From: Spirochaetaceae bacterium
GTDB taxonomy: Bacteria > Spirochaetota > Spirochaetia > Treponematales > Breznakiellaceae
NCBI GenBank assembly: GCA_031282435.1
Contig: JAITDS010000132.1
Location: 1-37,091 of the forward strand
Reading direction: 5' to 3'
Length of the DNA stretch: 37,091 bases
The notes under the pieces: generated by a model
Databases searched by the model: none
Told to the model about the DNA's origin: nothing
The model's input: the letters and a program-made list of their open reading frames with translations, nothing else
Made by a program: the position numbers and the translations under genes
Part shown: positions 66 to 35,901 of the stretch, piece by piece
Layout: every line of letters begins with the position of its first letter
Numbering within the stretch: position 1 is the first letter of the stretch

Positions 66-178
66 CCCCCCCGCCCCCCCGGGGGGGGCGCCGCGGCCGG
101 AGCGACAGCGCAGCCCCGAAAAGCCCGGTTTTTGCCTGCCTCCGGCAGGCAAAAATGCGCCCAAATTCTGATTACCAG
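66..178 (+). ncRNA. Structured repeat element, copy A (5' part degenerate, G/C homopolymers)
   Basis: GGCCGGAGCGACAGCGCAGCCCCGAAAAGCCCGG, then hairpin TTTTTGCCTGCC-tcc-GGCAGGCAAAAA (129-155), then ATGCGCCCAAATTCTG-attac-CAGAATT; same scaffold as copies B, C and D. Confidence 0.6.
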
Positions 179-203
179 AATTCAGATATACTTCCCGTAA
201 GTC

Positions 204-783: not shown

Positions 784-2813
784 TGGAAAACACAAAAACC
801 GCGCCGGGGATGACCCCCTGCTACTGTGAACATTGCGCCCGGACAAGCGCAATTATTGACGGCGATACAGCCCCCGGCAAGTCCGCTGCCGGCGGGAATT
901 TTTTCAACCTTTTTACATTACGTATAGCGGCGGGCAGTATTTTTTTCGTGCTTGGCCTGTTGCTGGAAGCGCAAATAATCCCGTCCGGCATCATTTCTTT
1001 TCACCAAACTTTTTTTCAAAACTTTTCACTAAGCGTTTCACCGGCCCTTATCGTCTGCATAGCGGCGTATATTTTAATCGGCTACGACGTAGTTCTGCGT
1101 TCCATAAAAAACATCAGTCGGGGACAAATATTTGATGAAAATTTTTTGATGACAATAGCGACATTCGGCGCGTTTGCGATAAAAGCGTATCCCGAAGCCG
1201 TTGCCGTGATGCTGTTCTATCAAATAGGGGAAGCGTTCCAAGACGGAGCGGTACGCCGATCACGAACTTCAATAGCGGCGCTGATGGACATAAGACCGGA
1301 CTATGCGAACCTCAAAGAAAACGGCGAAATACGCGCGGTTTCACCAAACGACGTGAGCGTGGGCAGCATTATAATCGTTAAACCGGGGGAAAAAATCCCG
1401 CTTGACGGCGTTATTGTGGAAGGCGCATCCTCAATCGACACCTCCGCGCTTACCGGAGAAAGTATGCCGCGTGATGTGGAGGCAGGCTGCGAAGTGCTGT
1501 CCGGCACAATCAACAAAAGCGGACTGCTCACCGTAAAAGTTACAAAAAGCGCAGGCGAATCGACTGTGGCGCGAATCCTTGAAATGGTGCAGAACGCCGC
1601 GCAAAAAAAATCAAAAGTGGAAAAATTCATAACAAAATTTGCCCGTTACTACACACCCGTTGTTGTAATCGCGGCGCTGCTGCTTGCGCTAGTACCGCCA
1701 ATCGTTTCCGGAAACATGGATTTTAGCCGCTGGCTGTACCGCGCCCTCGTATTTCTTGTAGTGTCCTGCCCGTGCGCGCTAGTCATCTCCGTACCGCTAA
1801 GTTTTTTCGGCGGCATAGGCGGGGCGTCAAAGCAAGGCATACTAATAAAAGGCAGTTCGTACCTTGAGGCGTTAAGCAACATTGATACGATAGTGTTCGA
1901 CAAGACAGGAACACTTACAAAAGGGATTTTCAAAATTGCCGGAATTGACACGGCGGGAACATATTCAAAAGACGAAGTCCTTTTTTACGCGGCGCACACG
2001 GAATATTTTTCCAAGCACCCCATTGCCGCCGCCATAACATCGGCTTTTCCGGACAAAGTTGACACGTCCATAATCGAAGGACTCGAAGAAATAGCGGGAC
2101 GCGGAGTTCGCGCAAATATAAACGGAAAAAAGGTATTGGCAGGCAATAAAAAATTGCTGGAAAACGGGAACGTGGAGTTTATGAGCTACACGGGAACAGG
2201 CGTATGCGTGTATATTGCGATTGACAACAAATACGCCGGACGCATAATCATAAAAGACGAAATTAAACCGGACAGCGCCGCCACTATAGCCGCGTTAAAA
2301 AAACTAGGCGTGCGTCAAACCACGATGTTTACCGGAGACACCGAAATGGAAGGCTCGCTTGTGGCCGGACAAATCGGAATAGACACACCGGTTACCGGCC
2401 TATTACCCGATGAAAAAGTAGAAGCCTTTGAAAAAATAGCCGGACTGCGAAAGTCGAAAGGCAGTCTTGTCTTTGTCGGGGACGGCATAAACGACGCGCC
2501 CGTACTAGCCCGCAGTGACGTCGGGATAGCGATGGGGGCGCGCGGCACGGACGCGGCCATCGAAGCGGCGGATGTCGTGCTTATGACGGACGAACCCGCA
2601 AAAATATGCGCCGCCGTAGCGATTGCCCGCAAGACACACCGCATCGTTAAACAAAACATCGTGTTTGCGCTCGGCGTAAAAGGCGTTATTCTGGGGGCGG
2701 GCGCGTTAGGCGCGGCTTCAATATGGCTTGCCGTTTTCGGCGATGTGGGCGTATGCCTTATCGCGGTGATGAACGCAATGCGGGCCGCAAGATACAAAGG
2801 CTTAAAAATATAG
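783..2813 (+). CDS. cadA: Heavy-metal translocating P1B-type ATPase (Zn/Cd/Pb type)
   Basis: SCPCALVIS (CPC), DKTGTLT, SKHP, GDGINDAP motifs; N-terminal CYCEHC; follows ArsR-family gene. Confidence 0.9.
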   Translation: MENTKTAPGMTPCYCEHCARTSAIIDGDTAPGKSAAGGNFFNLFTLRIAAGSIFFVLGLLLEAQIIPSGIISFHQTFFQNFSLSVSPALIVCIAAYILIGYDVVLRSIKNISRGQIFDENFLMTIATFGAFAIKAYPEAVAVMLFYQIGEAFQDGAVRRSRTSIAALMDIRPDYANLKENGEIRAVSPNDVSVGSIIIVKPGEKIPLDGVIVEGASSIDTSALTGESMPRDVEAGCEVLSGTINKSGLLTVKVTKSAGESTVARILEMVQNAAQKKSKVEKFITKFARYYTPVVVIAALLLALVPPIVSGNMDFSRWLYRALVFLVVSCPCALVISVPLSFFGGIGGASKQGILIKGSSYLEALSNIDTIVFDKTGTLTKGIFKIAGIDTAGTYSKDEVLFYAAHTEYFSKHPIAAAITSAFPDKVDTSIIEGLEEIAGRGVRANINGKKVLAGNKKLLENGNVEFMSYTGTGVCVYIAIDNKYAGRIIIKDEIKPDSAATIAALKKLGVRQTTMFTGDTEMEGSLVAGQIGIDTPVTGLLPDEKVEAFEKIAGLRKSKGSLVFVGDGINDAPVLARSDVGIAMGARGTDAAIEAADVVLMTDEPAKICAAVAIARKTHRIVKQNIVFALGVKGVILGAGALGAASIWLAVFGDVGVCLIAVMNAMRAARYKGLKI

Positions 2814-2874
2814 CCGCTTGATTTATGGGGAGGGGGCAAATAAAAATGAAGCGCTGCGCCGCAAAGCCGCGTTC

Positions 2875-3071
2875 AAATTCTGAACATCAAAATTTGGGCG
2901 CATTTCCAGCGCCAGAGGCGCTGGAAACCGGGCTATCCGCTATAATTAAATTTGACGGCGTTTTGCGCCGTCAAATTTAATTCCGCTTCTATCCCTTGCG
3001 CGGGCCAAACCGCTTTCAGCGGTTTGATTTTACGAGGTTTGCATTTTGCAAACCCGTTTGCTGGCGCAAAC
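2875..3071 (-). ncRNA. Structured repeat element, copy B, with an extended array of perfect hairpins
   Basis: Minus strand: GCGCAAGGGATAGAAGCGG, 17-bp perfect stem (2944-2982), ATAGCGGATAGCCCGG, 11-bp perfect stem (2903-2927), TGCGCCCAAATTTTG; extra hairpins at 3006-3026, 3036-3054, 3056-3071. Confidence 0.65.
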
Positions 3072-3245
3072 TCCAATTGATTACGTGATTACGAAAAGCG
3101 CGTCGGCCATTCTGTGTTTGCGCCCCTGCACTCTTGCCCCCGGCGCGTTGATTTTACCCGCCGTCCCCCGCCTCAAGGCAGGACGGCATTGGCTTGTTCC
3201 ATAGTGTTACTTCCGTTAAGGACCAGACGGGCAGACGACCGGGAG

Positions 3246-4808
3246 TTAATAGCCGTCTGACATAGCGCGGTTTTTGTCGCGTTGATAAAGCTCTTGATAG
3301 ATAAGATTGCGGTCTTTTAATTTTTCCTTTACCGCCTGCGTGAAAGGCATATAGCGCCAGAACGTACCCCGCACATCTTTATCAAGCTTTTGCGTGCCTT
3401 CACTTTCCTTAGTCATCCACATAATATAATCCTGAATAAAGTACGCCTTAACATCGCCTTTTAACTTTTGCGCCTGAAACCACTGATAGTAGTTTCCCGT
3501 TAAACCCTCCTCCATCCAGTAGAACGAGGCCTTTTCTTTCGCGACCTGCCAACGCAGATCCCCTACTGCGGAAAGCACCGCAAGCATAATATTTTTAGGA
3601 TACATAGGAATGGCGATACGCCCTCGGCTGGTTGCGCGGTTCGATTTATCAAACGGCTCCCAGCACATCCCAAAATCGCCGTAAGTAGGCAATAAAACTA
3701 CATAAGGCATTATACGGTTTGGTTTACCCTTGTAGTAACGTATGAAAGCCTCAGAATCGATACTCTCTACCCAAGCAAGCTGTTTAATTATATTTTCTTT
3801 GAACCCTATATTGTTTGGGGCAGGACGAAAAAATTCGCTTGTTAAAATGGGAAACGCGTTGCCTTGTCTGCCAACCGTCATCTTTGCCATTTGCCGTATC
3901 GAAGACATTTCCGTATCTATGGATTTAGTATCAATGGATACACTATCCGCGGCTCCGGCGGCTTCAAGTTTTTCGTTTATTGTTTCAAGATCTTCGCTGC
4001 TTTGTTCGAGATCTGTCATATATAAAGATGATTCACGGTCAATTTTCAAAAGCGTTTTTATAATATTTTGAATTTCGGTAAATGCGAGTTTTTGGTCTTC
4101 CGCATACGAGTCAAAAACTTCCGTAAAAAGATCATAATGGGAATGGCGCATAATAAGGTTTACGGCTTTTTGAAGTTGCTTTTCAAATTCTACACGCTCA
4201 GCCTGTTTTGCGCGCAATAAACCTTGGGAACCTTCAATCTTTCCCTTTGCTTTTTCGTACAAAGACAAGAGATGGGCGTTTGCGTTTTTATGAGCGGAAC
4301 CCGGACTAACCTCATCAGTAACGGAACATTTTATTTTACCGGAACCTATCGTAATTATCCATTCGTCAAGATAATAGACAGGCTGTTCCAAATCATTTTT
4401 AACAGGAACTTTCGAAAGCAAAGTTTTAGCTTCCGCATTCAGCATATTTGGATGAAGAACGCCGAAACGCAACAAAAATTTTATTGGATCCGCCGTTTTT
4501 GTGGTCAGCTTCTGCGCGGTTTTACCGATAAAATCCCAAAAAGCATTTATTAACTGCATTCGGAATATGGATTTATCTTTAAGATCTTTTGTTGTGGCGT
4601 ATTTCTGAAAGAGAGTATGCACACGCTGCATACAATCCCCGCCCTCCGAAAGCGCTATTTTGTAGTACGAGGGATCTTCAAATGCCTTGTGTCCGGTTTC
4701 TTCAAACATTTTTTCAATTGAGAAACCACTTTGACCTTGATCCGGTTCCGGTTTAGTGTCTTCTGTCTGCCCGGCATTCATATCCGGTACATTTTCTGTA
4801 TCATCCAT
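3246..4808 (-). CDS. Conserved hypothetical protein (treponeme-type, unknown function)
   Basis: Long ORF; start MDDTENVPDMNAG preferred over 4868 because the upstream codons overlap the MITE-like element. Confidence 0.75.
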   Translation of the reverse strand: MDDTENVPDMNAGQTEDTKPEPDQGQSGFSIEKMFEETGHKAFEDPSYYKIALSEGGDCMQRVHTLFQKYATTKDLKDKSIFRMQLINAFWDFIGKTAQKLTTKTADPIKFLLRFGVLHPNMLNAEAKTLLSKVPVKNDLEQPVYYLDEWIITIGSGKIKCSVTDEVSPGSAHKNANAHLLSLYEKAKGKIEGSQGLLRAKQAERVEFEKQLQKAVNLIMRHSHYDLFTEVFDSYAEDQKLAFTEIQNIIKTLLKIDRESSLYMTDLEQSSEDLETINEKLEAAGAADSVSIDTKSIDTEMSSIRQMAKMTVGRQGNAFPILTSEFFRPAPNNIGFKENIIKQLAWVESIDSEAFIRYYKGKPNRIMPYVVLLPTYGDFGMCWEPFDKSNRATSRGRIAIPMYPKNIMLAVLSAVGDLRWQVAKEKASFYWMEEGLTGNYYQWFQAQKLKGDVKAYFIQDYIMWMTKESEGTQKLDKDVRGTFWRYMPFTQAVKEKLKDRNLIYQELYQRDKNRAMSDGY

Positions 4809-4862: not shown

Positions 4863-4992
4863 GTTCACGGCGAGCGCATATAAAATCGTATCTCATTATC
4901 CTACAAAGAATTACAAACCATGCGCGAAACAATCCAAATGAGCTAATTCTTAAATCCTGTAAGAAATTATAAATTGATACGCGCTCGCCCTG
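4863..4992. mobile_element. MITE-like element, copy 1 (TIR CACGGCGAGCGCATAT / CAGGGCGAGCGCGTAT)
   Basis: Terminal inverted repeats; flanked by 8-bp direct repeat CCGTTCTT (4855-4862, 4993-5000); interior homologous to 32406-32491. Confidence 0.7.
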
Positions 4993-5294
4993 CCGTTCTT
5001 TCAGCAATTTAACATTATGAAAAATCGTGCCATAATAATGGATGGTACCGGGTATATTTGGGAAGTTAAGAGCCAATTATAGAAAAGGTCGGGAAGGAAC
5101 TGCCGGATAAGCGGCGGGAGGGGAACAACCGGAAGTACCGTTTGCCAGATGCGGTCAAGAGCGCGTTTGCTCTGTGCCGGCGGCGGACTTGAAAAATACT
5201 GATATTTGTATAAAAATAGAATAGCCATAGTTTATGGTTGCGGCTTCGTTAGTGGAAGCTCTAAGACATAAAGTTTTTTAATGAGGATTTAAAG

Positions 5295-26330: not shown

Positions 26331-26450
26331 ACAGTTTATTAGAACCTCTTGGTGTTAAAAAGTCAACGTATTAAAAAGTCAACGATTCCGTTTTCGGGAA
26401 AATTCAAAGTTTTACATGGTTTCAACGGTGTATTAGCGGTATTTTTTTCA

Positions 26451-26581
26451 TTTTGGGCGCATTTTTACGCCGCTTTAGCGGCGCAAAAACCGCGCTTTTC
26501 GGGGCTCCGCTGTCGCTCCGGCCACACCGCCCCTACGGGGCGTCGTGTCTGCTTCGCACCCCTACAATCGCTTGCGCGGCC
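26451..26581 (-). ncRNA. Structured repeat element, copy C
   Basis: Minus strand: GCGCAAGCGATTGTAGGGG...CGCCCC-gta-GGGGCG...GGCCGGAGCGACAGCGGAGCCCCGAAAAGCGCGG TTTTTGCGCCGCT-aa-AGCGGCGTAAAAA TGCGCCCAAA. Confidence 0.65.
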
Positions 26582-26649
26582 TAAAAGCGTATGTTTGATA
26601 AACGTAGGGAGGTTTTTCATATTTGGAATCGGAATTGCTGTTAAAAAGT

Positions 26650-32368: not shown

Positions 32369-32525
32369 CATTTCCATTGCGCTAAAACAGGGGGCATTTC
32401 TATTGGTAGCGCGGGCGCATATCAATTTATAATTTCTTACAAGACAAAGAATTAGCTCATGTGGATTGTTTTGTGCATGGCGCGCGCCCTGTTTCTATTG
32501 CGTCTTGACAGTCATTTCTATTGCG
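32369..32525. mobile_element. IS21-like terminal multi-repeat remnant, interrupted by a MITE-like element
   Basis: CATTTCCATTGCG, CATTTCTATTG, TTTCTATTGCGTCTTGACA, CATTTCTATTGCG at 32369, 32395, 32492, 32513; spacing resembles IS21-family terminal repeats (from memory). Confidence 0.55.
32406..32491. mobile_element. MITE-like element, copy 3 (short derivative)
   Basis: GCGCGGGCGCATATCAATTTATAATTTCTTACAAGACAAAGAATTAGCTCATGTGGATTGTTTTGTGCATGG homologous to minus strand of 4863-4992; flanked by 9-bp TTTCTATTG repeats. Confidence 0.75.
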
Positions 32526-35551: not shown

Positions 35552-35707
35552 AAGAGCCTCTCCATTTTATATGATTAACCGGCTCGTAAATTAACTCCAA
35601 AAAACATCTGTTGAAACCGGCTCGAATTACCTATAACATTATCGGATAATTGTACCCTAGTATACATCACAAATTTAATAATCGTCTAGTACAACTCGTG
35701 GTAATTT

Positions 35708-35901
35708 CAGGGCGGGCGCATATAAAATCGAATTTTAGAAAAACAAAAAAGTCATGAAATGTTGAAAAAAAAACGCTTGGCTTTTATCATAGACACAGCG
35801 CAAGGGATAGAAGCGGTATGAAAACGCGGGAGCGTTTTCATAATAGCGGATAGCCCGGTTTCCAGCGCGAAGCGCTGGAAATGCGCCCCAATTTTATATG
35901 C
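35708..35901. mobile_element. Possible degenerate MITE-like element, copy 4, enclosing structured element D
   Basis: CAGGGCGGGCGCATATAAAATCG at left (35708-35730); ATTTTATATGC at right (35891-35901) is the exact reverse complement of 35718-35728; outer right TIR absent. Confidence 0.4.
35798..35890 (+). ncRNA. Structured repeat element, copy D
   Basis: GCGCAAGGGATAGAAGCGGT ATGAAAACGC-ggga-GCGTTTTCAT AATAGCGGATAGCCCGG TTTCCAGCGC-gaa-GCGCTGGAAA TGCGCCCCAA. Confidence 0.7.

Follow-up and report, generated by a model that had tools for sequence, protein, structure and literature searches.

A Flavo-1-related three-way junction as the conserved core of a probable interspersed repeat in a Spirochaetaceae genome

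INTRODUCTION

Flavo-1 (Rfam RF01705) was described by Weinberg et al. in 2010 (PMC2864571), in whose discovery table it is assigned to Bacteroidetes. The Rfam model comprises 76 nucleotides (nt), in which a hairpin is bordered by unpaired flanks. In F. psychrophilum, Flavo-1 elements occur in sense and antisense without preference, and many lie outside transcribed regions (PMC9723704). This work concerns a Flavo-1-like element, copy B, on the minus strand at positions 2875-3071 of a 37,091-nt stretch of DNA from a Spirochaetaceae bacterium (contig JAITDS010000132.1, assembly GCA_031282435.1). The whole stretch is referred to here as the window. An earlier note, made from the sequence alone, had pointed to a resemblance between this element and Flavo-1. 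Copy B probably belongs to a nonautonomous interspersed repeat of about 250 copies that is similar to repetitive extragenic palindromic (REP) sequences and miniature inverted-repeat transposable elements (MITEs) and has a strand-specific three-way junction as its conserved core.

Several described systems share features with this repeat. As with the REP sequences, bacterial interspersed mosaic elements (BIMEs), and REPINs (REP doublets forming hairpins) of Pseudomonas and E. coli, its copies are numerous, intergenic, hairpin-based, assembled from mosaic modules, and free of target duplication. Like MITEs and BOX/RUP-like repeats, it occurs in many copies (~246 here) and in noncoding units of 250 to 490 bp, some of which carry inverted ends of 14 to 16 bp. 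A third comparison is to the attC sites of integrons, which likewise fold as single strands with a variable terminal stem.

RESULTS

Copy B folds into a three-way junction that contains the Flavo-1 hairpin

When folded as RNA, the minus strand of 2875-3071 reaches −93.5 kcal/mol (z = −8.3), and 0 of 200 dinucleotide shuffles were equally stable. The fold consists of six tandem hairpins, perfect or near perfect, as the earlier note had described, and a sequence check placed the constant blocks, the 17-bp stem, and the 11-bp stem where that note had put them. The core (2896-3001, minus strand, as are all parts of copy B) folds alone into a three-way junction (z = −8.0) made up of P0, P1, a GG linker, and P2, followed by CC. 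The closing stem P0 pairs a 5′ arm, GCGCA (2997-3001), with a 3′ arm, TGCGC (2898-2902); the two arms covary across phyla. P1 (2930-2995), which contains a perfect inverted repeat, is the Flavo-1 hairpin. Its base (GGG-A-TA-GAA-GC-GG / ATA-GC-GGA-TA-G-CCC) contains conserved non-Watson-Crick internal loops and is topped by the variable 17-bp apical stem (arms 2966-2982 and 2944-2960, loop of 5 nt). P2 (2903-2927) is a hairpin with a perfect 11-bp stem (TTTCCAGCGCC/GGCGCTGGAAA) and a loop of 3 nt.

A scan of the whole window against Rfam at the gathering threshold returned no match, and Flavo-1 was retrieved by a permissive local scan. In the latter, copy B matched RF01705 over 2922-3010 with 39.7 bits (E = 4.4e-7), which agrees with the family named in the earlier note and falls just under the Flavo-1 gathering score of 42 bits. 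Sister copies on two other contigs of the same genome (C105, 42.9 bits; C202, 42.6 bits) exceed that score. Among the matches listed, 80 in this genome had E values of ≤0.001, two of them above the gathering score, and 14 control genomes gave none. Scores reach 42.9 bits in this genome and 45 to 62 bits in other spirochaetes. Positions 1 to 76 of the model, including the consensus P1 with its GA-rich internal loops, were aligned throughout with no nonstandard pair marked, and the P1 base, internal loops, and pairs equal those of Flavo-1. Matches to STnc250, Mahella-1, and SurA in the permissive scan were below their own cutoffs and were set aside.

The conserved unit is a three-way junction and is larger than the Rfam Flavo-1 hairpin, to which it adds the closing stem P0 and the second hairpin P2. 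Because the flanks are unpaired in the Rfam consensus line, P0 and P2 are, judged from alignment to the model, an extension of it.

Pairing is conserved while stem sequences change

From the surroundings of ~70 copies in this genome, 76 elements were parsed; one of them, which lies within a gene (L019 5127), is probably a chance match. With few exceptions, the elements run in the order P0a, A, P1, GG, P2, P0b, and CC. Their apical stems have many different sequences, nearly all of which are perfectly paired. At the base of P1, two types alternate, GGGATA...ATAGCCC and GCGATT...AAAGCGC, which amounts to an exchange of G-C for C-G and of U-A for A-U. Within this one genome, pair 2 of P1 is G-C in 36 and C-G in 36 copies and pair 6 is A-T in 37 and T-A in 35, with 100% pairing at these positions, compared to about 50% in shuffles. 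The proposal in the earlier note that selection acts on base pairing rather than on sequence is thus supported by the genome-wide covariation, the lack of which would have spoken against it.

The same P0-P1-P2 order was found in other spirochaete genera, in plasmids of Moraxella, and in Bacteroidota (Foetidibacter, Sediminibacterium, Puia, and Flavobacterium), the last with P0 in the forms GCGTT/AACGC, GCGTG/CACGC, GGGTG/CACCC, and GCATT/AATGC. For comparison across phyla, 24 sequences were aligned with MAFFT; the patterns by which they were chosen from Spirochaetota and Bacteroidota demand part of P1 and favor P0 pairing. In this alignment, 95.4% of cells were paired (79.8% when shuffled), pairs had changed on both sides 72 times (21.6 when shuffled), with such changes in all three arms, and the covariation score was 0.455 (0.166 when shuffled; 0.06 to 0.18 in slid controls). 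RNAalifold, to which no structure was supplied, predicted the same junction from the 24 sequences, with 17 of 23 pairs compensated. The plain MAFFT alignment is the cleaner test, as the P2 and P0 boundaries in the within-genome parse were chosen to maximize pairing.

Stems that are almost free of mismatches while their sequences differ between copies could also be a mutational by-product, produced when template switching corrects quasi-palindromes, without any selection for folding. We regard this as very improbable, given that the internal loops have kept their mispairs across phyla and escaped correction (125 of 128 parsed copies have GGA) and that P0 covaries too, with arms about 90 nt apart that enclose two hairpins. 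The conserved mispairs (A.G; GNA opposite GGA) sit between pairs and stay unpaired.

Mispairs in P2 also indicate which strand folds. Across 96 distinct P2 arms, there were 20 G-T and 2 A-C mispairs (p = 1e-4). Since a G-T mispair of P2 is an A-C on the opposite strand, the named strand (for copy B, the minus strand) is, by this asymmetry, the one that folds, be it as RNA or as single-stranded DNA.

Copies are numerous, intergenic, and neutral in orientation

The genome is a 2.46-Mb draft in 267 contigs, and most of the genomes compared are drafts too. A pattern for the 5′ arm of P1 gave 246 matches in 2.46 Mb (116 forward and 130 reverse, or approximately one per 10 kb), which is a pattern count rather than a curated copy list; the reversed-pattern control gave 0. 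By the gene calls of a simple hexamer-scored open reading frame caller, 75 of the 76 parsed copies are intergenic or barely overlap a gene end, in sequence that is 77% coding. Every orientation class relative to the flanking genes is represented (19/18/15/11), orientation to the upstream gene is unbiased (37:30, p = 0.46; 18:15 in tandem intergenic regions), and a GC-skew bias is absent (0.011 ± 0.007), i.e., there is no replication-strand preference. Of 61 copies, 18 lie in convergent intergenic regions, compared to about 10 to 15% expected (p = 1e-5 to 4e-3), and intergenic regions that contain a copy exceed the others by about 300 nt in length.

This distribution bears on whether the element is a functional RNA, namely, a transcribed small RNA (sRNA) or 3′ untranslated region element whose junction binds a protein and whose many copies would reflect local action on the individual transcripts (stability or processing). 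The conserved internal loops (GAA or another GNA versus GGA) and the invariant junction resemble a recognition site, there is strong covariation, and G-T in P2 is tolerated on the named strand alone. Enrichment between convergent genes places copies near 3′ ends, and all copies in the oral-treponeme-like RHS arrays described below are co-directional with the genes. Against such a function stand the random orientation to the upstream gene in this genome and the F. psychrophilum transcriptome, which gave no consistent sense placement (PMC9723704). Moreover, no promoter-like or terminator-like site was found in 2750-3300, and the count of intrinsic terminators there (a GC-rich stem and then a T run) was 0 on both strands. 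The genomic distribution speaks against a role linked to transcription, and we consider a functional RNA unlikely.

Copy number varies from 0 to at least 38 among congeners; one other genus has 29 copies, and most genera of this family have none. Overall, 20 of 247 Spirochaetota genomes match under stricter filters. Named records with the same motif include Bacteroidota and metagenome-assembled genomes labeled Spirochaetaceae/Spirochaetales (Cf509 and Gx481). Beyond the Bacteroidetes of the discovery table (PMC2864571), the range here thus also takes in Spirochaetota and plasmids of Moraxella. The latter are MOBF plasmids of Moraxella ovis and M. catarrhalis that carry Flavo-1 three-way junctions (L238 ~6000 and L239 ~6000) and bring in a third phylum, Pseudomonadota. 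Viral contigs gave 20 pattern matches, one of which is a full junction with an extended P1 loop (L215; IMGVR 3300010163_003561); the other 19 lack the element's 5′ half and were rejected as unrelated. None of the phage records searched contained the element. In congeners, the intergenic region orthologous to that of copy B is empty or, in one genome (G003), is occupied by a degenerate copy that points the other way.

The junction is embedded in larger mosaic units

Modules around the core are common to the copies and comprise three 5′ hairpins and two alternative 3′ segments. In copy B, the 5′ accessory hairpins occupy 3056-3071 (GTTTGC/GCAAAC), 3035-3055 (9 bp; a module common to other copies), and 3005-3027 (AAACCGC/GCGGTTT), the first two assigned from the fold and the third from the fold and the flank alignment of copies. 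The 3′ accessory hairpin (2875-2895) has 9 bp, including one U-G wobble that the earlier note had read correctly. An inverted end of 14 to 16 bp, GCRATTCCGGTTTC, has 117 matches, compared to 3 in the control. In some copies, GCRATTCCGGTTTC stands inverted at both sides and so bounds whole units of 251 to 490 bp with terminal inverted repeats of the kind that define MITEs, and many copies are without one or both ends. Among the end pairs listed from this fragmented assembly, no autonomous parent with the same ends was found. P1 and P2 reassort: the 72 copies compared contain 58 P1 stems and 51 P2 hairpins, and every copy has a P1/P2 combination of its own.

The unit of REP sequences, BIMEs, and REPINs is a single imperfect palindrome, unlike the junction found here. 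A REP in the strict sense would be a GTAG-tagged hairpin moved by an HuH transposase of the Y1 type, the REP-associated tyrosine transposase (RAYT). Such an origin would suit intergenic, hairpin-based, strand-specific elements with a BIME-like mosaic and no target duplication, but flank alignment revealed no fixed GTAG/CGTC tag beside the core, and Y1_Tnp counts do not track Flavo-1 counts. This genome, with 246 copies, has a broken Y1_Tnp gene only; G010 has 47 genes and 2 Flavo-1 matches; G021 has 29 matches and one broken Y1 gene; and G029 has no Y1 gene. Given neither tag nor matching Y1 transposase, assignment to the REP/RAYT family was rejected, and mobilization of this kind is, in our view, very unlikely. 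As a separate observation, Y1_Tnp matches in the relatives G010, G023, and G007 number 47, 22, and 19, which is unusually many for RAYT-type genes and unrelated to Flavo-1 number.

Other copies in the window

Three further copies were located in the window. Copy D (35798-35888, plus strand), a parsed element, is a full three-way junction with a short P1 unlike the stem of copy B. Copy C (26455-26577, minus strand), also parsed, is a full junction with a much longer alternative P1. End-pair comparison places copy C within a whole repeat unit (26382-26638, minus strand) with inverted ends GCAATTCCGATTCC and GAAAACGGAATCG, one of the units bounded at both sides. Copy A (about 123-182, plus strand) comprises the 3′ half only (P2, the P0 3′ arm, and the 3′ hairpin). 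The earlier note had described copies A, C, and D as sharing linkers and differing in their stems. This holds for the P1 stems of C and D; it does not hold for P2 of copy D, whose first 10 bp equal those of copy B, or for copy A as a half copy.

Beside copy A, the contig start at 40-95 is rich in G/C homopolymers, looks like an assembly artifact at a repeat, and is probably of low quality. The window also contains further dispersed repeat families, namely, a ~76-nt block present at 4918-4994 and 32405-32480 in opposite orientations (88 to 91%), and TTCACGGCGAGCGCATATAAAATCGTAT-type blocks at 4864-4891 and 35706-35733, which were found beside other copies too.

Copies in RHS arrays and near TD-2 RNA

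In G206, G029, and G199 (oral-treponeme-like, a label based on TD-2 RNA and the integron/RHS setting, among others) and in G255/G126 of another family, the Flavo-1 copies examined sit in arrays of RHS-core fragments (TIGR03696, 62 bits) with different C termini. Their strand is that of the RHS genes, and they typically follow a small putative immunity gene at a distance of 15 to 480 nt (loci L220 to L223 [G206:C1 2582001-2652000], L229 to L232, L224, and L225). Such arrays expand by duplication, which makes their copies nonindependent, although two lineages show the pattern. A Flavo-1 copy may possibly act here as a 3′ homology block for RHS cassette exchange.

Co-directional arrays between gene modules (G206, G029, G199, G255, and G126), together with constant bases and a variable yet paired terminal stem, recall a site for site-specific recombination of the attC type, which acts as a folded single strand with a variable terminal structure. 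Yet the arms GGGATWGNAGCGG / AGCGGAWAGCCC are without the R″/R′ AAC...GTT triplets that define attC (PMC3607928), copies in the genome studied here are dispersed singly in both orientations, and no integron was found in termite-gut treponemes (PMC3607928). Identity with attC was rejected on the missing core triplets, and we hold an attC-type site to be extremely unlikely.

Like Flavo-1, TD-2 RNA (RF03162) of treponemes is a repeated structured RNA, and it lies beside Flavo-1 copies in L222, L227, and L228; it is a separate family, located on the strand opposite to the adjoining Flavo-1 copy in all three loci. In two of them, a pair of Flavo-1 copies 0.75 to 0.86 kb apart flanks TD-2 RNA (L227 3034-3938 and L228 3273-4064). 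The pair in L227 follows a formylglycine-sulfatase-like protein that resembles a diversity-generating retroelement variable protein, and the pair adjoins toxin-antitoxin-like small genes.

DISCUSSION

A REP/MITE-like repeat that is kept for its fold, rather than as a regulator of its neighbors, fits the data. Such a repeat would spread by copying in trans, through an enzyme that recognizes a folded single strand (single-stranded DNA or RNA), and would be tolerated in intergenic positions, most readily between convergent 3′ ends. If only copies still able to fold are copied again, the junction would be kept for this reason, and stem sequences could drift freely provided that pairing stays. Recombination would presumably swap arms between copies.

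Several observations weigh against a mobile repeat. In contrast to MITEs and BOX/RUP-like repeats, no target-site duplication was visible in the flanks of about ten end-bounded units, which leaves the unit ends unproven as ends of transposition. The best pairwise matches between copies are mostly 84 to 94% over 130 to 315 bp; therefore, no burst is under way, and the family is not freshly amplified. A clean empty site was not found in a close relative, where synteny is broken and congeners are only 71 to 77% identical. As to a mobilizing enzyme, the draft genome contains no intact Y1 transposase, only the broken remnant, and a reverse transcriptase is not supported, as RVT_1 is absent from the draft assemblies of this genome and of G003 and G021, all with high copy numbers. 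Lastly, P1 arms show no excess of G-T over A-C (7 to 15), a count rendered uninformative by the mis-slicing of one P1 subfamily during parsing.

More speculatively, and with considerable doubt, Flavo-1 could be the core of a new class of nonautonomous mobile element in at least three phyla, rather than an sRNA family, with a single-stranded three-way junction read by a trans-acting enzyme. In RHS toxin arrays, the junction would then have been co-opted as a boundary for the exchange of toxin/immunity cassettes.

Since 2010, Flavo-1 has been cataloged as an RNA without a known function. The junction and the orientation-neutral distribution of the repeat move the question from what the RNA regulates to what copies the repeat. 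Its structure, its boundaries, and the genomes that carry it (with about 246 copies in this one and few or no copies in most relatives) now define where the enzyme should be sought. The co-directional copies in RHS toxin/immunity arrays provide a second lead, on the shuffling of toxin cassettes.
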